64,000 bases of DNA, taken from assembly GCF_000733765.1 (NCBI RefSeq), contig NZ_JPOG01000001.1:744001-808000 (forward strand). Reading direction: 5' to 3'. This stretch comes from Algiphilus aromaticivorans DG1253. Its GTDB lineage: Bacteria; Pseudomonadota; Gammaproteobacteria; Nevskiales; Nevskiaceae. The position numbers and the translations under genes were made by a program. Numbering within the stretch: the first letter of the stretch is position 1; every line of letters starts with the position of its first letter. This document shows, piece after piece, positions 2,887 through 12,845 of this stretch. The notes below the pieces were generated by a model. That model was not told where the DNA came from. It did not search any database and worked only from the letters and a program-made list of their open reading frames with translations.

Positions 2887-4269
2887 ATGAGCGCTGTTCT
2901 CGATTTCGAGCAAGCCCAGGATCCGCCGAAGGCAAAGGGTCTGCCGCTGCTCGGCAATACCCTCGAAATGGCCCGCGACCCCGCGCAGTTCTTCCTGCGC
3001 CTGTATCGCGATTACGGCCCGGTCAGCCGCGTCACGGTGATGGGGAACGAGTACACCGTCATCGCCGGCCCGGAGGCCGCGAACTTCGTCGGCTCGCGTG
3101 AGGGCAAGGACAGCCTGCGCTCCAAGGAGTTCTGGCAAGGGCTGGTCGAGGAGTACGGCGCGACGCGCACCCTTACCGGCGAGGATGGCGAGTCGCACAA
3201 GGAACTGCGCAACATCATGCGGCGCGGCTACTCGAAGGACTCCATCAAGGGCCGCTACAACGAGCTCGTAAGGATCACCGATCGCTGCTTCGAGCGCGAC
3301 TGGCCGGTGGGGCAGTCCATCAACGTGCTGCCGGCCATGCAGTACATGGTCACCGACCAGCTCGGCACCATCCTCACCGGTAGTGCGCCGCTGGAATACG
3401 TCGACGCGATCCGTACCAACATCCTCTACATCCTCAATGTCCTGGTGACGCGCCAGCGCCCGAAGATCCTGCTCAAGCGGCCGAAGTATCAGAAGGCCAA
3501 GGCGCGCGTTGAGGAACTCAAGGAGAAGATGGTTGCCGACTGGTACGCGCGGCATCCCCAGGGCCAGGCCGAGCCGTCGGAGGACGAGACGCCGAACCTC
3601 ATCGACGACATCATGCGCGCGCACGTCAATCACCCGGAAGTCATTCCGGAGCAGGATCTGACCGTGACACTGACCGGTCCCTACGTCGCCGGTCTCGACA
3701 CCGTGGCGAACACCACCGCGGCCATCACCTACTGCGTGCTGAAGTACCCCGATGTGCGTCGCCGCGTCTACGAGGAAGTCGATGCGCTCTTCGCGGATGG
3801 CGAGATCGACGAGAGCCAGCTCTTCGCCAAGATTCCGTCGCTGCAGGGCGCGATCATGGAAGCCATGCGGCTGTACCCGATCGCGGTAGCGCAGATGCGC
3901 ACGGCCACCAAGGACTTCGTCTTCGACGGCTACCGCGTGCGCGAGGGCGAGATGATCTACGTCGCTACTTCCGTGCCGCATTTCATGGAAGAGTTCTACC
4001 CCGAGCCGCAGCGCTTCGATATAGACCGCTACGCCAAGCCGCGCGCCGAGCACATGCAGTCCGGCGCCTACTCGCCCTATGGCCGCGGCCCGCACACCTG
4101 CCTGGGCAAGAGCCTGGCCGAGGTGCAGATCGCCCTGTCCATGGCACGGCTCTTCTACAAGCTCGACCTCGAGCTCGACCCGCCCGACTACGAGCTGAAG
4201 ACCAAGACCGCGCCGACGCCCGGGCCGGCGACGACCTTCAAGGTGAAGGTGAAGGGGTATCGGAACTAG
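2887..4269 (+). CDS. Cytochrome P450
   Basis: This 460-residue soluble P450 has all three hallmark motifs. The I-helix oxygen-binding AGLDT is near residue 266, ExxR (EAMR) near 325-328, and the haem loop SPYGRGPHTCLGKSLAE carries the proximal Cys at about 405. P450s insert one oxygen atom into unactivated C-H bonds using two electrons. A ferredoxin reductase and a [2Fe-2S] ferredoxin encoded 2.3 kb downstream are the natural class I redox partners. Its substrate is unknown; neighbouring acyl-CoA and SCP2 genes suggest a hydrophobic terpenoid, steroid or acyl chain. There is no membrane anchor, as expected for a bacterial P450. Confidence 0.93.
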   Translation: MSAVLDFEQAQDPPKAKGLPLLGNTLEMARDPAQFFLRLYRDYGPVSRVTVMGNEYTVIAGPEAANFVGSREGKDSLRSKEFWQGLVEEYGATRTLTGEDGESHKELRNIMRRGYSKDSIKGRYNELVRITDRCFERDWPVGQSINVLPAMQYMVTDQLGTILTGSAPLEYVDAIRTNILYILNVLVTRQRPKILLKRPKYQKAKARVEELKEKMVADWYARHPQGQAEPSEDETPNLIDDIMRAHVNHPEVIPEQDLTVTLTGPYVAGLDTVANTTAAITYCVLKYPDVRRRVYEEVDALFADGEIDESQLFAKIPSLQGAIMEAMRLYPIAVAQMRTATKDFVFDGYRVREGEMIYVATSVPHFMEEFYPEPQRFDIDRYAKPRAEHMQSGAYSPYGRGPHTCLGKSLAEVQIALSMARLFYKLDLELDPPDYELKTKTAPTPGPATTFKVKVKGYRN

Positions 4270-4357
4270 GCGCCCGGCTCATCTCAACGGACGAAGCCCC
4301 CACGGGAGCGCTATCGCTACGCTGTGAGGTAAGTCCGACTCACAAGAGCGATAAGTC

Positions 4358-5569
4358 ATGCCCGACAGCAGTCCGGCCGCGGAGCGGCCTTCGGTGTATC
4401 AGGCCTTCACCGGCCTTTCCCCCGACGAGATGGAAATCCTGCACCAGGCCGACCGCTTCGCGCAGGCGGAGCTGTATCCGCTGGCCGAGCGTATGGACAA
4501 CGAGGAGTGGTGGCCGCCCGAGGTCTTTCCGAAGATTGGCGAGACCGGTTTCTTCGGCATTACCGCGCCGGAGGCGCTGGGTGGCTCGGGCATGGATGTC
4601 TTCACCAGCGGGCTGGTGCTGCAGGCCTTCGGGCGCTGGAACCATGCGCTGGCGCTGTCCTGGGTCGCGCACGAGAACCTCTGCATGCACAACATCCTGC
4701 GCAATGCCAGCGAGGCGCAGAAGCAGAAGTACGTGCCGGGCATGTGCAGCGGCCAGTTGATCGGCGCGCTCGGGCTGACCGAGCCGGGTGCCGGCTCGGA
4801 TGCGCTCGGCTCGATGCGCACGACGGCCTATCGCGACGGCGATCACTACGTGCTCAACGGCAGCAAGATCTACATCACCAACGGCCCCGTCGCCGACGTG
4901 CTGCTGGTCTACGCCAAGACCGACAAGGATCGCGGCGCCAAGGGCATTTCGGCTTTCTTGGTCGAGAAGGACACCCCCGGCTTCAAGGTGGCGCAGAAGC
5001 TCATCAAGATGGGCTTCCGCGGCAGCCAGACGGCCGAGCTGGTCTTCGAGGATTGCCGGGTGCCGGCCGAGAATCTGGTCGGCGTCGAGAACGAAGGCGT
5101 GCGCGTGGTCATGTCGGGGCTGGATCTGGAGCGGGCGATGATCTCGCCGATCTGCTTGGGCATTGCCGAGCGCGCGCTGGAGCTGTCGCTGGAGTTCGCC
5201 AAGCAGCGCAAGCAGTTCGGCAAGCCGATCAGCGAGTTCCAGATGATCCAGGACAAGATCGCCACGATCTACACCAAGGTCGAGGCGATGCGGCTCTACA
5301 CCTACCAGACGCTGCGCGCGGCCAATGTCATGGGTGAGGACGATGGGGGCCGTGGCGAGATTCACAAGCTCACCGCTGCGGGCGTGCTCTTCGTCGCCGA
5401 GACGATGAACGAGGTGCTCAACGAAGCCGTGCAGATCCACGGCGGCAACGGCTACATCTGGGAGTCCGAGATCAATCGGCTGTACCGCTCCATCAAGCTG
5501 CTGGAGATCGGCGCCGGTACCTCGGAGGTGCGCAAGCTCATCATCAGCGGCGAGCTGCTGCGTGGCTGA
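4358..5569 (+). CDS. Acyl-CoA dehydrogenase, isovaleryl-CoA dehydrogenase-like
   Basis: This 403-residue FAD flavoprotein oxidises an acyl-CoA to the 2,3-enoyl-CoA. The family signature LTEPGAGSDALGS lies near residue 145 and the C-terminal signature QIHGGNGYI...LEIGAGTSEVRK near 360-395. The segment GLDLERAMISP near 252 carries Glu at the position of the catalytic base in isovaleryl-CoA dehydrogenases, which use this helix instead of the C-terminal Glu of short-chain enzymes. A branched or cyclic acyl-CoA is therefore likely. The SDR gene starts 7 bp after its stop, indicating one transcript. Confidence 0.9.
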   Translation: MPDSSPAAERPSVYQAFTGLSPDEMEILHQADRFAQAELYPLAERMDNEEWWPPEVFPKIGETGFFGITAPEALGGSGMDVFTSGLVLQAFGRWNHALALSWVAHENLCMHNILRNASEAQKQKYVPGMCSGQLIGALGLTEPGAGSDALGSMRTTAYRDGDHYVLNGSKIYITNGPVADVLLVYAKTDKDRGAKGISAFLVEKDTPGFKVAQKLIKMGFRGSQTAELVFEDCRVPAENLVGVENEGVRVVMSGLDLERAMISPICLGIAERALELSLEFAKQRKQFGKPISEFQMIQDKIATIYTKVEAMRLYTYQTLRAANVMGEDDGGRGEIHKLTAAGVLFVAETMNEVLNEAVQIHGGNGYIWESEINRLYRSIKLLEIGAGTSEVRKLIISGELLRG

Positions 5570-5576
5570 GGGGACG

Positions 5577-6443
5577 ATGAGTCACGAAGCCTGGCTGGCC
5601 GAGCAGCTGGCCACCAACACGCCGGAGGCGGTGTGGGAGGCGCCCACCGTTTACCGCGACGATCTCTTCAAGGATCAGGTCATCCTGGTCAGCGGCGGCG
5701 GCAGTGGTATCGGCCGCGCCGTGGCACTGCTCTGCGCGCGGCTGGGCGGCACGGTCGTGATCTGCGGCCGTACGCAGGAGAAGCTCGACGCGGTGGTCGA
5801 CTTCGCGCGCGGCCGCGGTAAGACCATGCACGCCTACACGGCCAATGTGCGCGACGCGGAGTCCGTGGAGGCGCTGCATCAGCGCATCGCCGACGAGGTC
5901 GGTGTGCCGGACGCAGTCATCAACAACGCCGGCGGGCAGTTCCCGGGGCAGGCCATCGACTTCTCGCCCAACGGCTGGAATGCCGTGGTGCAGAACAATC
6001 TCAACGGCAGCTGGTTCATGATGCAGCGCGCCGCCCGTGGCTGGCGCGATGCCGGCCGCGGTGGCGTCATCGTCAACGTCGTCGTGGTGACCGAGCGCGG
6101 CATGCCCGGTGTGGCGCATACCGTGGCCGCGCGCAGCGGCGTCATCGGGGCCTCGACCACCGTGGCCGTCGAATGGGCGCCGCTGGGTATCCGCGTCAAT
6201 TGCGTGGCGCCCGGGCTGACCGCCACCGAGGGGCTGGCGGTCTACCCGCCGGAAGCGCAGAAGGAGTTTCCGCGTGCCAACGCCATGAAGCGGCCGGGCA
6301 CGCCCATGGAGATCGCCGAGGCCTGCGTCTATCTGGCCGCGCCCTCGTCCAGCTTCATCACCGGCGAAGTGCTCACCGTCGACGGCGGCGGGCGCCTGTG
6401 GGGCGAACTCTGGACCGCCGGCCGGCCCGATTGGTACGCCTGA
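5577..6443 (+). CDS. SDR family oxidoreductase resembling peroxisomal trans-2-enoyl-CoA reductase (PECR-like)
   Basis: The protein has 288 residues from the ATG at 5577, which follows GAGGGG. A GTG 15 bp upstream is possible but overlaps the preceding gene. The Rossmann motif SGGGSGIGRA and NNAGG are intact. The catalytic YxxxK is absent: the aligned segment is HTVAARSGV, with Thr and Arg at the Tyr and Lys positions, and the usual Ser is Val. As I recall it, human PECR has a comparable HSGAARAGV segment and a similar C-terminus (SFITG...VDGG). I therefore assign it to that non-classical group, probably reducing a trans-2-enoyl-CoA with NADPH. Its place directly after the acyl-CoA dehydrogenase fits acyl-CoA chemistry. 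Confidence 0.75.
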   Translation: MSHEAWLAEQLATNTPEAVWEAPTVYRDDLFKDQVILVSGGGSGIGRAVALLCARLGGTVVICGRTQEKLDAVVDFARGRGKTMHAYTANVRDAESVEALHQRIADEVGVPDAVINNAGGQFPGQAIDFSPNGWNAVVQNNLNGSWFMMQRAARGWRDAGRGGVIVNVVVVTERGMPGVAHTVAARSGVIGASTTVAVEWAPLGIRVNCVAPGLTATEGLAVYPPEAQKEFPRANAMKRPGTPMEIAEACVYLAAPSSSFITGEVLTVDGGGRLWGELWTAGRPDWYA

Positions 6444-6528
6444 CGCACACCCGGCTCATGCGAACGGCCGAGGGGGCGGTAGCGCCGGCTGGCTTACCAT
6501 CGCGCTACGTTCCGTTTGATACGCATTC

Positions 6529-7767
6529 ATGACCGAATCCGCCAGCGAGCATTACGTCATCCTCGGCGCCGGCCAGGCCGGCGCCGAAGTCGCAGCTTCT
6601 CTTCGCAAGAAGGGCTTCGAAGGCCGCATCACCCTGGTCGGCGAGGAGCCGCAGCCGCCCTACCGGCGACCGCCGCTTTCCAAGGCCTTCCTGGCTGGCG
6701 AGGCGGAAGAAGCCAGCCTCTTCGTGCTCAAGCCCGAGCAGATGGAGAAGCAGCGCATCGACTTCATCGGTGGCGCGCGCGCCACGGCCATCGACCGTGA
6801 CGCCAGCACCGTGACGCTGGACGATGGGCGCGAACTGCGCTACGACAAGCTTGCGCTCACCCTCGGCGGCCGCGCGCGCCCGCTGCCGATTCCCGGCGCC
6901 GATCTGGCCAACGTCTTCCTGTTGCGCAATATTGCCGACGTCGAGGCGATTCGGCCGCACATCGTCGACGGGCGCCGGCTCTGCATCGTCGGCGGCGGCT
7001 TCATTGGGCTGGAAGTCGCCGCGGTGGCGCGCAAGCTGGGGCTCCAGGTCACCGTCGTCGAGACAATGGAGCGCGTGCTGGCGCGGGTCACCGCACCAGT
7101 GGTGTCGCGCTTCTTCGAGCGCATCCACCGCGAGGCCGGCGTCGATGTACGCACCGGCGTGGCGGTGGAGGCTTTCGAGGGCGACGACGGCGCCGTGCAG
7201 CGCGTGCGCCTCGGCGACGGCTCGACGCTGGACACCGACCTCGTCATCGTCGGCATCGGCCTGATCCCGCACAGCGACCTCGCAGAGGCCGCCGGCCTCG
7301 AATGCGACAACGGCATCGTCGTCAATGAATACGCGCGCACTACCGATCCGGACATCGTCGCCGCCGGCGACTGCGCCAATCATCCCAATCGCTTCGCCGG
7401 CGGTCGCACGCGGCTGGAATCGGTGCAGAACGCGATGGAGCAGGCGCGGGTGGCTGCGGCCAGCATGCTGGGCGAGGGCCAAGCCTATGAGAATATCCCC
7501 TGGTTCTGGTCCGATCAGTACGAGCTGAAGCTGCAGATGGCCGGGTTGTCCGGCGGCTATGACGATATCGTGCTGCGTGGCGATCCGGAGAGCGGTCGGC
7601 AATTCTCGGCCTTCTATCTGCGCGAGGGGCGGCTTATTGCGGCGGACTGCGTATCGCGGCCGCAGGACTTCATGTTCGCGAAGAAGCTGATCGCCGCCGA
7701 TGCGTTGCCGGACGCGGCAAAGCTGGCGGATGCCGAAGTGCCGCTCAAGGAACTGGTCCCGGCCTGA
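6529..7767 (+). CDS. FAD-dependent ferredoxin reductase (putidaredoxin reductase type)
   Basis: This 412-residue protein has two dinucleotide-binding folds. GAGQAGAEVA near residue 12 binds FAD and GGGFIGLEVA near 161 binds NAD(P)H. A second FAD contact is at AAGDCANHP near 280. The C-terminal dimerisation/reductase domain follows. The length matches the roughly 400-residue putidaredoxin/rubredoxin reductase family. It transfers electrons from NAD(P)H to the ferredoxin encoded 10 bp downstream, and from there most likely to the P450 at 2887-4269. Confidence 0.93.
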   Translation: MTESASEHYVILGAGQAGAEVAASLRKKGFEGRITLVGEEPQPPYRRPPLSKAFLAGEAEEASLFVLKPEQMEKQRIDFIGGARATAIDRDASTVTLDDGRELRYDKLALTLGGRARPLPIPGADLANVFLLRNIADVEAIRPHIVDGRRLCIVGGGFIGLEVAAVARKLGLQVTVVETMERVLARVTAPVVSRFFERIHREAGVDVRTGVAVEAFEGDDGAVQRVRLGDGSTLDTDLVIVGIGLIPHSDLAEAAGLECDNGIVVNEYARTTDPDIVAAGDCANHPNRFAGGRTRLESVQNAMEQARVAAASMLGEGQAYENIPWFWSDQYELKLQMAGLSGGYDDIVLRGDPESGRQFSAFYLREGRLIAADCVSRPQDFMFAKKLIAADALPDAAKLADAEVPLKELVPA

Positions 7768-7777
7768 AGGAGCCACC

Positions 7778-8098
7778 ATGCCCACCATTCGTTTCATCGA
7801 GCCCTCGGGCACCGAACATGTCGTCGAGGCCGAGAGCGGCCAGTCGGTCATGGAGGCGGCTACGGGCAATCTCGTGCCCGGCATCGTCGGTGAGTGCGGC
7901 GGCTCCTGTTCCTGTGCGACCTGCCACGTCTACATCGATCAACCCTGGTTCGGGCAGCTGGGCACGCCGGACGAGATGGAGGAGATGATGCTCGAAGGCG
8001 CTATCGAGCCGGGCGAGCAGAGCCGCTTGTGCTGTCAGATCGAGGTCGCCGACGATCTCGATGGGATGGTGGTGCGGATTCCCGCTGGTCAGCTCTGA
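7778..8098 (+). CDS. [2Fe-2S] ferredoxin, adrenodoxin/putidaredoxin type
   Basis: The protein has 106 residues, starting at the ATG preceded by AAGGAG. The cluster ligands follow the adrenodoxin pattern C-x5-C-x2-C-x36-C: Cys40, Cys46, Cys49 and Cys86, in ECGGSCSCATC and RLCCQI. This class shuttles single electrons between a flavoprotein reductase and a P450 or oxygenase. It lies 10 bp after the reductase gene. Its 3' end overlaps the end of the convergent WS/DGAT gene by 10 bp. Two extra cysteines (44 and 85) beside the ligands are unusual but probably not structural. Confidence 0.95.
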   Translation: MPTIRFIEPSGTEHVVEAESGQSVMEAATGNLVPGIVGECGGSCSCATCHVYIDQPWFGQLGTPDEMEEMMLEGAIEPGEQSRLCCQIEVADDLDGMVVRIPAGQL

Positions 8099-9660
8099 GT
8101 CTTCTTTGCGGCGCTCTTGCGTGCGCTCTTCTTGCGTGCGGTTTTGCTCGCGGCTTTCTTGGCGGTCTTCTTGACCGCCTTCCTGGTGGATTTCGCAGCC
8201 TTGCTTCCGGTCTTCTTCGCGGTCTTCGTCGCCTTCGTCGCCGTTTTGTTTGGCGCGCGCCTCTGGTGGGTTGGTTCCAGGGCAGCTTCCAGCTCGTCCA
8301 GGGCTTCGCCGGTGTAGACCGCCAGCCGCTGCAGGGAGGGGATGGCGTTGCGGCACCCGATGTAGCCCACCGTGACCTTGTCGGCGTAGCCGACGAGCGT
8401 CATGTTCAGCGCGTAGCCGTCGAAGAGCACCGACATTGGATAGATCGACTCCAGCTCGGCGCCCATCATGTAAAGCCGCTCCTTGGCGGCTACGACGTTG
8501 GAGACGACGACGTTGAACAGCGGCGGCCACTTGGGCAGCGTGCCGGTGAGCTGGCCCAGCATCAGCGGGGCGATGCCGAACATTCCGAAGCGCTCCAATG
8601 CAGCGGAGGCCATGCCCAGCATTTCGTCCTTTGTGCGCTGAGTGGTGGCGTGGATGCGCTGCAGGCGATGCAGGGGGTCGGGAATGTCGCTGCCGATGGG
8701 GCAGACGAAGCCGCTGACGGCATTGCCCGAGCGACCATCGGTCCGCGGCAGGCCGATGGGCACCGAGGCCGTCAGCGAACGCTCCGGCAGCTCGCCCTGT
8801 TCCTGCAGATAGCGGCGCGTGGCAGCGCCGCACAGGCTCAGCGCAATATCGTTGATGGTGGTGTCGGTGGCGCTGGCGATGGCCTGCAGGCGGGGCAGTG
8901 ATAACACTTGCGTGCCGAGCCGGCGCTGGCCGGTGATGGGCACGTTGAAGGGCGTGTCCGGTGTGCGCAGGGCGGCGCGAATGGCGCTGTTGTCACCTCC
9001 GCGACTGAGGCGGTAGAAGGTTGCCGCGAGATCGCGCGCATTGCCGGCCTGCAGCTTGCCGCGGCTCAATACGCCGCGCAGCATTTCCTGGAGATTGCGT
9101 GCCTGCGCGACGTCCTGTCGGTGCGCTGAAGCCTCGCGCGCGGTGCGCAATGCCGCGCGCAGCTCGCCTGGGCTGCGTGGGTCCGTGGGGTCGGCGGTCA
9201 GCCAACTCTTGACCAGCTTCATCGCGCCCATGCCGTCGATGGCACAGTGGTGTGCCTTCAGATAGAGGGCGAAGCGGTCGTTCTCCAGCCCTTCGATGAT
9301 GTGGCATTCCCAGAGCGGCCGGTCGAAATCCAGCGCGTGCGAGTGCAGGCGTGACACGAGCACGCCCAGCTCGCGCTCGCCACCCGGATAGGGCAGCGCT
9401 GAATGGCGGACGTGGTATTCGGGATCGGTTTCGGTGGGCACCCATTGCGGTGGCAGCGCGTGGGCCGCCGGCCAGTGCAGACACTGATCGAAGGGCGCGG
9501 GCATGAAGGGATGCGCGCGCAGCGCTTCCGTCAGGCGGTGAAGATAGTCCGGCGGTGCGTTGGGCGGGCGCTTGAAGGTCATCAGGCCGCCGACGTGCAT
9601 GGGCGTGCGCGCAGACTCCATGCGCAGGAAAGCGGTGTCGAGCACGCTCAGTCGGGTCAT
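8089..9660 (-). CDS. Wax ester synthase/diacylglycerol acyltransferase (WS/DGAT) with lysine-rich histone-like tail
   Basis: This 523-residue protein has the HHxxxDG acyltransferase motif (LKAHHCAIDGMGAMKL) near residue 137 and the N-terminal LSVLDTAFLRME typical of bacterial WS/DGATs. These enzymes join a fatty acyl-CoA to an alcohol or diacylglycerol to make storage lipid at the membrane or lipid-droplet surface. The family usually ends near 460 residues. Here about 60 extra residues form an Ala/Lys/Thr-rich tail with AAKKA- and TAKKA-like repeats, like histone H1 or AlgP-type proteins. The tail could bind DNA, RNA or an acidic surface. The stop overlaps the ferredoxin gene by 10 bp in convergent orientation. 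Confidence 0.92.
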   Translation of the reverse strand: MTRLSVLDTAFLRMESARTPMHVGGLMTFKRPPNAPPDYLHRLTEALRAHPFMPAPFDQCLHWPAAHALPPQWVPTETDPEYHVRHSALPYPGGERELGVLVSRLHSHALDFDRPLWECHIIEGLENDRFALYLKAHHCAIDGMGAMKLVKSWLTADPTDPRSPGELRAALRTAREASAHRQDVAQARNLQEMLRGVLSRGKLQAGNARDLAATFYRLSRGGDNSAIRAALRTPDTPFNVPITGQRRLGTQVLSLPRLQAIASATDTTINDIALSLCGAATRRYLQEQGELPERSLTASVPIGLPRTDGRSGNAVSGFVCPIGSDIPDPLHRLQRIHATTQRTKDEMLGMASAALERFGMFGIAPLMLGQLTGTLPKWPPLFNVVVSNVVAAKERLYMMGAELESIYPMSVLFDGYALNMTLVGYADKVTVGYIGCRNAIPSLQRLAVYTGEALDELEAALEPTHQRRAPNKTATKATKTAKKTGSKAAKSTRKAVKKTAKKAASKTARKKSARKSAAKKTQS

Positions 9661-9850
9661 TGCGGTCTCCCCTTTGTTTTCGTCCTTCTCGTCAGCCTAG
9701 CTGTTTTGCGGCCCGATAGCGCGCAGAGCGCCGACCGCTCGCGCTAGTCAGTTTGGATGATGGAAGAAGGGTGGCGGCGAACTAGTGTTACTGCCGCTAT
9801 TACCCGAATACCACATTAGACCGAAAGACCGGCATCACGGAGGGGAGACC

Positions 9851-11800
9851 ATGCAGAGCTTCAGGGGCGCCGTTGCACGGTGCTGTTCCATCGCCATACC
9901 CGTTATCGCGCTGACTGTTCCGGGCCTCGCGGGCGCCAGAAGTCTGTCGTTGCCATTCGACATCGAGGCCAATTACAACCTGACGCTCAACTACGCGGTC
10001 GCGATGCGCATGCAGAATCAGGATCCGGCGCTCACCGACGGCACTATCGATCCGCTGCAGCCCGTGGTGCTGCCAGAAGGGCAGATCATTGGCTTCGAGC
10101 GCACCGGCCTGCCCGACACTTCCAATAGTGATGACGGCAACCGCAACTTCGACAAGTACAGCCTGATCAATAATCGCATCAGCGCGCTCGCGGAGATGGC
10201 TTTCGAGCGCGACAATTTCGCCTTTGTGCTGAGCGGTAACGCCTTCTACGACGACGTCTTCTTCCACGACAACGACAACAAGAACGCGGATTTCCTTAAC
10301 CGCTTCGACGATACCGAAACCTACAACGACGCCGGTGAAGGCCGTGCCGGTGATCGCGAGGTAACCGACAAGTTCTCGCAGGCCATGCGCTCGCAGAATG
10401 GCCGCCGTGCGCGGCTTCTCGACGCGTATCTGATCGCCGATTTCCCCATCGGCGATTCCTCCTATCTGAACCTCCGTATCGGCCAACAGGTGGTGTCCTG
10501 GGGCGAGGCGCTTTTCTTCGGTGGTATGGCGCGCGACATGGGTATCGCCGACGCCAGCGCCGGATTCATACCCGGCGCCGAGGTCAAGGACATCCTGTTG
10601 CCGACGCCGCAGGTGTCCGCGCAGATTGGTCTTGGCTGGGACTGGACGCTGAAGGGCTACTACAAGCTCAGCTTCGACGAGAACGAGATCTTCCCGGTTG
10701 GCCACTACTTTTCGCCTACGGATGTGCTTGGGCCGGGCGCGGAGTTCGCATACGGCTCGATCAACCCGGCGTATCTCGAGGGGTGCCCCGGCCTTCTAGA
10801 TGTCGGTCAGTTCAACGACTTCGTCGGCAATCTTCTGGGCGAGCTCAGCGACCTCAGCCAGCTCTGCAATCTCGGTGGTCTCGGTGGGGCGCTGCTCAAC
10901 GCTCGGCCCAATATCCTGACCTTCCGCGAGGCCGACAATCGTCCCAGCGACAGCGGGCAGTGGGGTGTGGGACTCGACTACCGGCTCACGTCGAGCACCT
11001 CGCTTAGCGCGCATTATCTGCGCTATCACAACCCCAACCCGGGGCTGAAGTTCACCACCGGTTTCGCCCGGATCGGTGAGGTGGGCGGTATCGAGATCAC
11101 CACCGGGCTCATCAATCAGACGGTGCCGGTGAGCTACCGGGTGACCTACTTCGACGATATCGAGCTCTACAACCTGTCCTTCTCCACGACGGCCTTCGGG
11201 CTCAGCGTGGCGGGCGAGGTGAACTATCGCGATGGCATCAACATCGACGTGCTGACGATTGCTTCCGGTGTGCCCTTCCCGGAGCCGCAGCGCGGCAAGA
11301 CCGTGCAGGGTCTGGTTTCGACCATCGCCGCTTTCAATCCGGCCGTAAGCTTCATTGACGAGGTCAATGCTGTCGCCGAAGTCCAGTACATCCGCGTGCT
11401 CGACGTTGATCCGATCACCAATCCGCAGACCGGCGTCAATCCGGTCGGTGATGGTGATGAGCTCTTCTTCGTCGATAACGACGCCGCAGGCTTCCAGCTT
11501 CTGCTGCTGCCCAGGAAGCGCAATGTGCTGTCCGGTTGGGACTTCACGGGACTGGTTTCCTACGCCGAGCTGAGCTATGGCAATCCGGCACAGGCGGGCT
11601 CCTTCGGTGCGCTTTTCGGCGAAGGTGATCGTCGCCTGAGCCTGGGCGGCACCATGCAGTACCTGCAGAACCTCTCCTTCAATCTCACCTACAACTTCTT
11701 CTTCGGCGATCCCGAAGCCACCATCGGCGACAGCTTCCAGCGACAGAATCCCTTCGTCGACCGCGATTACCTCGCCTTCAACGCGAAGTACCAGTTCTAG
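9851..11800 (+). CDS. DUF1302 family outer-membrane-type protein (paralogue 1)
   Basis: The protein has 649 residues from the ATG at 9851, which is preceded by GGAGGGGAGACC. A longer start at 9785 lacks a ribosome site. An N-terminal signal peptide (hydrophobic segment ending at GLAGA) precedes a beta-rich body with repeated aromatic-terminated strands and a C-terminal Phe (NAKYQF), typical of outer-membrane beta-barrels. DUF1302 proteins occur in steroid, terpene and hydrocarbon degraders beside DUF1329 proteins and are thought to help move hydrophobic compounds. A second copy lies at 13098-15041. Confidence 0.85.
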   Translation: MQSFRGAVARCCSIAIPVIALTVPGLAGARSLSLPFDIEANYNLTLNYAVAMRMQNQDPALTDGTIDPLQPVVLPEGQIIGFERTGLPDTSNSDDGNRNFDKYSLINNRISALAEMAFERDNFAFVLSGNAFYDDVFFHDNDNKNADFLNRFDDTETYNDAGEGRAGDREVTDKFSQAMRSQNGRRARLLDAYLIADFPIGDSSYLNLRIGQQVVSWGEALFFGGMARDMGIADASAGFIPGAEVKDILLPTPQVSAQIGLGWDWTLKGYYKLSFDENEIFPVGHYFSPTDVLGPGAEFAYGSINPAYLEGCPGLLDVGQFNDFVGNLLGELSDLSQLCNLGGLGGALLNARPNILTFREADNRPSDSGQWGVGLDYRLTSSTSLSAHYLRYHNPNPGLKFTTGFARIGEVGGIEITTGLINQTVPVSYRVTYFDDIELYNLSFSTTAFGLSVAGEVNYRDGINIDVLTIASGVPFPEPQRGKTVQGLVSTIAAFNPAVSFIDEVNAVAEVQYIRVLDVDPITNPQTGVNPVGDGDELFFVDNDAAGFQLLLLPRKRNVLSGWDFTGLVSYAELSYGNPAQAGSFGALFGEGDRRLSLGGTMQYLQNLSFNLTYNFFFGDPEATIGDSFQRQNPFVDRDYLAFNAKYQF

Positions 11801-11852
11801 AGGCCTCGCGCCGCCGGCTTCGAAGCCGACCACTTGCAATCACCGGGCTTTC

Positions 11853-12845
11853 ATGACGGAACAGGCAGCAGAATTCGACCCCCGCGACTTCCGGCGCGCC
11901 CTGGGCAGCTTTGCCACAGGCGTAACCATCATTACTACTCGCGACGCCGAGGGCGAGCCGGTTGGTTTGACGGTCAACAGCTTCAACTCGGTGTCGATGA
12001 ATCCGCCGCTGGTGTTGTGGAGCCTTGCCAACGAGGCGATGAGCCTGCCCGCCTTTCGCGATGCCGACTACTGGGCCGTGCACATCCTCGCCACCGATCA
12101 GGAGGACCTGTCCACCCGCTTCGCCAAGCGCGGGGAGGACAAGTTCGCGGATCTCGATATCGAGGAGGGCCGCGGCGGCATCCCGCTGCTCAAGGGCTGT
12201 ACCGCGCGCTTCCAGTGTCGTACCGCGTCCAGCTACCAGGGCGGGGATCACCTCATCTTCATCGGTGAAGTGCTCGACTACGATCATTTCGAAAACCCAC
12301 CGCTGGTCTTCCACGGAGGGCGCTATGCACACGCTACCCAGCGCGCGCACAGCAAACCCGGTGAGCCCTATCTGGCAGGCAGCTTCGGTGAGGATTTCCT
12401 CGGCTATCTGCTGGGCCGAAGCCACTTCCGCTTCTTCTCGCGCATCCGTCCGCATTTGGCGGAGGCCGGGCTGAGCGACGAGGAGTTCTACGTGTTGTCG
12501 GCGATGACGCTGAAGCCGCGAATGTCGAGCGTCGATCTCGACAAGCTCACTTCCGGCGTTCTGGACGATTGCTGCACGCAGACGCTGGATAGCCTGATCG
12601 GCCGCGGCCTGCTCAAGAGCGAAGAGAAGGTTGCGGACGAATCCGGCTACGAGCTCACCCCGGAAGGTCGCGAGCTGGCGCTGAAGCTGATCTCCGTGGC
12701 CAAGGCCGTGGAATCGCAGGTGCTCGCCGGCCTCGGGCCGGATGAAGATGCCGTGCTGAAGTCCTTGCTCAATCAGCTGCTCGGTGTGCTCGATCCCGAG
12801 GTCGGCAGCATCTGGCATCCGGACGAGAACGAACGCCCCGGCTGA
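11853..12845 (+). CDS. Flavin reductase domain fused to a MarR-like winged-helix domain
   Basis: This 330-residue protein has an N-terminal flavin-reductase domain at about 10-165 (RRALGSFATGVTIITTRDAEG, LTVNSFNSVSMNPPLVLWSL, FIGEVLDYD). The C-terminal domain, about 180-320, resembles MarR winged-helix proteins (DEEFYVLSAMTL, LTSGVLDDCCTQTLDSLIGR, GYELTPEGRELA). The same architecture is known in the reductase component C1 of Acinetobacter p-hydroxyphenylacetate hydroxylase, where the MarR-like part mediates effector control. It probably supplies reduced FMN or FAD to a two-component monooxygenase. HsaB is a single-domain counterpart. No oxygenase partner is in this window. It starts 52 bp after the first DUF1302 gene. 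Confidence 0.85.
   Translation: MTEQAAEFDPRDFRRALGSFATGVTIITTRDAEGEPVGLTVNSFNSVSMNPPLVLWSLANEAMSLPAFRDADYWAVHILATDQEDLSTRFAKRGEDKFADLDIEEGRGGIPLLKGCTARFQCRTASSYQGGDHLIFIGEVLDYDHFENPPLVFHGGRYAHATQRAHSKPGEPYLAGSFGEDFLGYLLGRSHFRFFSRIRPHLAEAGLSDEEFYVLSAMTLKPRMSSVDLDKLTSGVLDDCCTQTLDSLIGRGLLKSEEKVADESGYELTPEGRELALKLISVAKAVESQVLAGLGPDEDAVLKSLLNQLLGVLDPEVGSIWHPDENERPG

Follow-up and report, generated by a model that had tools for sequence, protein, structure and literature searches.

INTRODUCTION

Proteins that sit on bacterial storage inclusions and carry a basic C-terminus have been described in several systems. The lipid-droplet protein MLDS is reported to bind DNA through its Lys-rich C-terminus and so to recruit DNA to droplets (PMC5504291), and a comparable role on granules of PHA or polyphosphate is reported or proposed for PhaF, PhaM and AlgP (PMC9239181, PMC13052382). 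For HBHA, the accessible text reports that the protein lacking its Lys-rich region neither binds PI/PIP2 nor complements a lipid-inclusion defect, and that PI/PIP2 are bound only when HBHA is methylated and not when it is made in E. coli (PMC6176652). Membrane attachment of wax ester synthases/diacylglycerol acyltransferases (WS/DGATs) is described as electrostatic only, with Ma1, Ma2 and the Acinetobacter enzyme located in the soluble fraction, again in those parts of the source that are accessible (PMC5407786).

This report concerns a WS/DGAT with a polybasic tail, encoded in the window, that is, the whole stretch of 64,000 nucleotides of Algiphilus DNA that was analysed. A literature search covering titles and the beginnings of abstracts, with subscription papers mostly outside its reach, met no description of basic tails on bacterial WS/DGATs. 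To our knowledge, the nucleation, membrane holding and inheritance of bacterial wax/TAG bodies are largely open outside the actinobacteria. A polybasic tail on the synthase is a single deletable element, testable in tractable hosts (Marinobacter, or E. coli expressing WS/DGAT), and could serve as a handle for engineering storage-lipid yield.

THE WS/DGAT GENE AND ITS CORE

The features discussed below are, in window positions:

8089..9660, minus strand: WS/DGAT, 523 aa (PF03007, PF06974, TIGR02946, Foldseek)
8845..9651, minus strand: PF03007 catalytic domain, residues 4-272 (E 2.8e-68)
8290..8727, minus strand: PF06974 C-terminal domain, residues 312-457 (E 2.5e-31)
9232..9252, minus strand: catalytic motif HHCAIDG, residues 137-143 (30-sequence alignment)
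8092..8274, minus strand: polybasic, disorder-like C-terminal tail, residues 463-523 (23 K/R, 0 D/E; pLDDT)
7778..8098, plus strand: 2Fe-2S ferredoxin gene, convergent to the WS/DGAT gene (PF00111)

The protein lies above the curated family cut-offs over both domains (PF03007 and PF06974) and scores 424.7 bits with TIGR02946 (cut-off 309.95). Residues H137, H138, D142 and G143 of the HHxxxDG motif are invariant among 30 aligned sequences, and the solved WS/DGAT fold is matched, the best Foldseek hits being 6chj and 7nxg (6chj_B, E 5.0e-39, TMt 0.86). The window enzyme is a complete member of the family whose core looks intact, and catalysis is predicted from sequence. The first-pass annotation had described a normal WS/DGAT extended by a histone H1-like Lys/Ala tail, a description borne out by the intact domains and by a 61-residue tail with 18 Lys and 14 Ala; the tail is real, but the span assigned to it, 8089-8292, took in the stop codon and the last codons of the core.

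The 3′ ends of the WS/DGAT and ferredoxin genes overlap by 10 bp (8089-8098), so that the tail occupies all of the intergenic space. The neighbours at 2887-8098 are a P450, an acyl-CoA dehydrogenase, an SDR, a ferredoxin reductase and the ferredoxin, and those at 9785-12845 are a DUF1302 protein and one flavin reductase-like protein; the adjoining ferredoxin reductase-ferredoxin pair is also kept in the one other Algiphilus genome searched (G001). At residues 387-390 the window subfamily reads SNVV (once SNLV), and the genome's remaining four WS/DGATs read SNVPGP or SHVPGP.

A TAIL OF HIGH POSITIVE CHARGE

Residues 463-523 comprise 18 Lys, 14 Ala, 10 Thr, 6 Ser and 5 Arg with no Asp or Glu, giving a net charge of +23 over 61 residues, and contain nearly no hydrophobic or aromatic residues. 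The last helix of the structure model spans residues 443-467, with the tail after it, and pLDDT in the AlphaFold model is below 50 for residues 475-523, which is compatible with a disorder-like tail. GC content at third codon positions is 0.80 in the tail and 0.84 in the core, first positions in the tail are AT-rich (0.39 vs. 0.68 in the core), and Lys far exceeds Arg despite the GC-rich gene, a combination expected of a translated Lys tail and not of a slipped frame. A frameshift artefact, on which the first-pass annotation had made the tail's reality depend, is ruled out by the frame, which stays open as far as the stop codon at 8089-8091, by the codon-position pattern and by the recurrence of such tails in relatives; the tail lies in frame.

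Amphipathicity was also considered. The hydrophobic moment of the window tail is 0.60 (shuffle p 0.015) and that of the second tailed WS/DGAT of this genome, described below, is 0.38 (p 0.64), and four distant WS/DGATs (L271, L274 and L275 from Marinobacter and L279 from Hahella) give C-terminal moments of 0.51-0.61 (p 0.019-0.085). With 0.60 for a tail that has almost no hydrophobic residues and 0.38 for the second one, this measure has no discriminating power, and amphipathicity was dropped as support. In those four paralogues a helix-like, hydrophobic-containing end replaces the basic tail.

A disordered peptide with a charge of +23 should bind polyanions. Our leading, still tentative, reading is that the tail acts as a flexible polybasic electrostatic tether of the WS/DGAT to an anionic surface, in the first place the phospholipid layer of the membrane or lipid body. 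Electrostatic binding of this kind would keep the enzyme beside its water-insoluble substrates and products, and the likeliest surfaces would be anionic phospholipids, both in the inner membrane and in the monolayer that encloses a lipid body as it grows. Tails that are long and H1-like, as here, might also, with less support, touch DNA and so link lipid bodies to the nucleoid.

Nucleoid partitioning was the proposal of the first-pass annotation, and it is a plausible hypothesis by analogy with PhaF, PhaM, MLDS and AlgP: the tail would bind DNA nonspecifically, and nascent lipid bodies coated with the enzyme would stay attached to the nucleoid and be distributed to both daughter cells, in the way that PhaF and PhaM serve PHA granules. 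The H1-like composition and the density of charge speak for it, as do the C-termini of those four proteins, for which DNA binding on droplets or granules is reported. Against it, the Lys-rich tail lacks the PAKKA motif of the MLDS type (one TAKKA is present) and the KPAA-type tandem repeats of AlgP and PhaF, its two Pro residues both lying within the first eight residues, and the search of titles and abstract beginnings gave nothing on lipid bodies in this organism. A phasin domain (TIGR01837) is absent from the Pfam and NCBIfam matches of the window protein; the genome gave 0 matches to TIGR01837, in a search that had no positive control, as 14 control genomes likewise gave none over the cut-off.

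C-TERMINAL CHARGE WITHIN THE GENOME

The genomic background consisted of 289 genes obtained by simple ORF picking from the window and 20 stretches of 20 kb, two of which (near 900 kb and 3.29 Mb) were chosen because they contain known WS/DGAT paralogues. Net charge over the last 30 residues averages 0.2 (sd 3.0), and reaches at least +6 in nine genes, at least +8 in four and at least +10 in two. The window enzyme ranks first (+13), followed by a second WS/DGAT (+12), whose stretch had been chosen to include it. With both proteins at +10 or above being WS/DGATs, generic Lys/Ala tails in this proteome are ruled out on the sample.

The protein ranking third in C-terminal charge has 800 residues and looks like a putative RNase R. 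This lends some weight to a further explanation, in which the tail binds another polyanion (polyphosphate, RNA or ribosomes) or serves regulation through Lys modification. AlgP, with its Lys/Ala-rich tail, sits on polyphosphate granules (PMC9239181), and the HBHA tail is active only when methylated (PMC6176652), as far as the accessible portions of both sources report. This explanation offers no reason why tails should be found on WS/DGATs rather than on other enzymes, and we consider it improbable.

Five WS/DGATs are encoded in the genome and two of them are tailed, the other three ending in 5-12 residues without net positive charge. The second tailed enzyme (L003/L012; G000:C1:3295515-3296996, minus strand) has a 44-residue basic tail with 17 K/R. 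Searching the genome with the window tail alone returned only the tail itself below E 0.2, a search that missed the known second tail too. Copying of one tail from the other paralogue finds no support: the DNA alignment score is equalled or exceeded in 51 of 500 codon shuffles, so the likeness of the two tails at the DNA level is no greater than codon composition gives.

DISTRIBUTION ACROSS RELATIVES

A tail was scored as basic when it extended at least 12 residues beyond core residue 458 with a net charge of at least +4, a rule by which the counted tails include a few core residues. On this basis 82 of 178 WS/DGATs have a basic tail and 96 do not, in a non-redundant set that includes the window enzyme and from which duplicates (11 loci by hand, 13 by script) were removed and L123-L145 left out as background or duplicates. 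The tail is thus not peculiar to the window enzyme but recurs across the family.

Tails range from 2 to 145 residues, and 72 of the 82 basic ones have 50 or fewer (median about 27), lengths that count against a nucleoid tether and would, in our view, fit anchoring to a membrane more readily than H1-like tethering to the nucleoid. The 145-residue tail belongs to the enzyme of Salinisphaera hydrothermalis (L086) and contains a run of repeated KTQA units. Among the 101 tails of at least 12 residues, 82 carry +4 or more, 11 carry +1 to +3, one is neutral and seven are negative, none at −4 or below. These tails contain 15.7% Lys, vs. 3.4% in their cores, and only 0.6% Phe, Tyr and Trp together.

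All 58 genomes searched at the family level contain a WS/DGAT match. Basic tails occur in 26 of the 28 best-matching family-level sequences fetched (L015-L042) and in none of the four next-best fetched matches (L146-L149), and 17 of 80 further family-level sequences, mostly paralogues and drawn from part of the remaining matches listed, have one. At 49% identity or more to the window core the trait is found in 27 of 36 sequences, window included; the nine without it are L007 (same genus), L024, L030, L046, L048, L049, L050, L052 and L146. Named, non-duplicate relatives at 38-51% identity have a basic tail in 37 of 61 cases, and by group the named set gives 19 of 20 for Marinobacter, 8 of 8 for betaproteobacteria and 1 of 8 for actinobacteria. 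A charge of at least +8 over the last 30 residues is reached by 12 of 67 WS/DGATs of named relatives, tail-less ones included (a WS/DGAT was recovered at 67 of the 80 loci), vs. 3 of 365 neighbouring ORFs, a background from simple ORF picking that we judge to contain spurious ORFs.

Whole genomes were also surveyed, with 30 loci taken from 69 and from 37 matches and 29 of each scored. Basic tails are present in 13 of 29 WS/DGATs from eight proteobacterial genomes and in 4 of 29 from six actinobacterial genomes, some of these sequences being in the earlier counts too; three Marinobacter genomes searched whole have them in 3 of 11 examined enzymes, one per genome. As judged from these comparisons, the basic tail is a recurrent, paralogue-specific and labile trait of many proteobacterial WS/DGATs.

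GAIN, LOSS AND SELECTION ON CHARGE

In the second Algiphilus genome (G001) the orthologues of both tailed enzymes are tail-less, that of the window enzyme ending in ASRDDPLSA (L007) and that of the second enzyme in LEAAI (L011), a further point against a nucleoid tether. No basic remnant lies downstream of the L007 stop. Behind the L011 stop there is, in frame, a stretch of about 13 residues that is Arg-rich and not Lys-rich, which may be either chance in GC-rich DNA or the remnant of a tail. In tree order almost all neighbours of the second tailed enzyme are without a tail, which suggests that this tail was gained locally. The window enzyme belongs to a mostly tailed subfamily, and loss or shortening in G001 together with expansion in the present genome is the simpler reading.

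The core tree (a single FastTree tree) requires 27 changes of tail state, while 500 label shuffles give a mean of 59 changes and a minimum of 48, which indicates a trait that is inherited but labile. In the tails pN is below pS in six of six close pairs of relatives (three of them not independent, and none with the window enzyme), and over the same six pairs pN/pS is higher in tails than in cores, so that tail constraint is the weaker.

Turnover of this kind raises the possibility of neutral low-complexity drift, in which 3′ ends lengthen by slippage in Lys/Ala codons and have no function. The wide range of tail lengths, the short imperfect repeats of 9-15 bp within the window tail DNA, the number of changes on the tree and the raised pN/pS would all fit such a process. 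It is nevertheless improbable in view of the one-sided charge (82 of 101 at +4 or above, none at −4 or below), the enrichment of Lys in a GC-rich gene, pN below pS in every close pair, and the clustering of tail state on the tree. Tail sequence and length turn over fast and charge persists; on these sequence comparisons, what is conserved in the tail is its charge and not its sequence.

MEMBRANE OR LIPID-BODY TETHERING AS THE PREFERRED READING

An electrostatic tether is favoured by the combination of an intact core, a disorder-like tail, charge specific to WS/DGATs in the sampled genome, one-sided charge, recurrence and pN below pS. Phospholipid as the partner is favoured by the electrostatic membrane attachment described for WS/DGATs (PMC5407786), by the failure of HBHA to bind PI/PIP2 or to restore lipid inclusions once its Lys-rich region is removed (PMC6176652), and by the shortness of most basic tails. 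Among the candidate surfaces, membrane or lipid-body anchoring is placed first and nucleoid tethering second, the latter as rather unlikely. Several observations count against the membrane: Ma1, Ma2 and the Acinetobacter enzyme are reported from the soluble fraction, HBHA binding depends on methylation, and the near lack of hydrophobic and aromatic residues leaves a composition that fits DNA, RNA or polyphosphate equally. The core can also dispense with the tail, as the tail-less Algiphilus orthologue indicates and the two solved chains, which as deposited end near the end of the core, may show too, and the many tail-less family members, L146-L149 and most of the Marinobacter enzymes from whole genomes included, weigh in the same direction.

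COMPARISON WITH KNOWN SYSTEMS

The window enzyme shares family and fold with the Marinobacter aquaeolei WS/DGAT (6chj) and Acinetobacter baylyi AbWSD1 (7nxg), whose chains as deposited (455 and 463 residues) can be matched as far as residues 451 and 453 and lack a tail of this kind. It resembles the actinobacterial lipid-droplet proteins MLDS, TadA and HBHA in combining a Lys-rich C-terminus with a protein of neutral-lipid droplets; according to the accessible sources MLDS binds DNA and methylated HBHA binds phosphoinositides. Those are separate droplet proteins, MLDS having its own N-terminal droplet-targeting part, whereas the window tail belongs to the enzyme that makes the lipid and is without PAKKA. 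With the PHA granule-nucleoid tethers PhaF and PhaM, and with AlgP, it has in common a C-terminus that is histone-like or H1-like, reported there for proteins of storage granules; it differs in that the tail is fused to an acyltransferase, in which neither a phasin domain nor a KPAA repeat was found.

A broader proposal, speculative and unlikely as a whole, is that proteobacteria carry a droplet-nucleoid (or droplet-membrane) tether on the neutral-lipid synthase itself, gained and lost many times, that the two Algiphilus paralogues with their sequence-different tails place newly forming lipid bodies along the chromosome, and that actinobacteria use the separate proteins MLDS and HBHA. The Lys/Ala tail is a known theme, and it is here placed on the enzyme.
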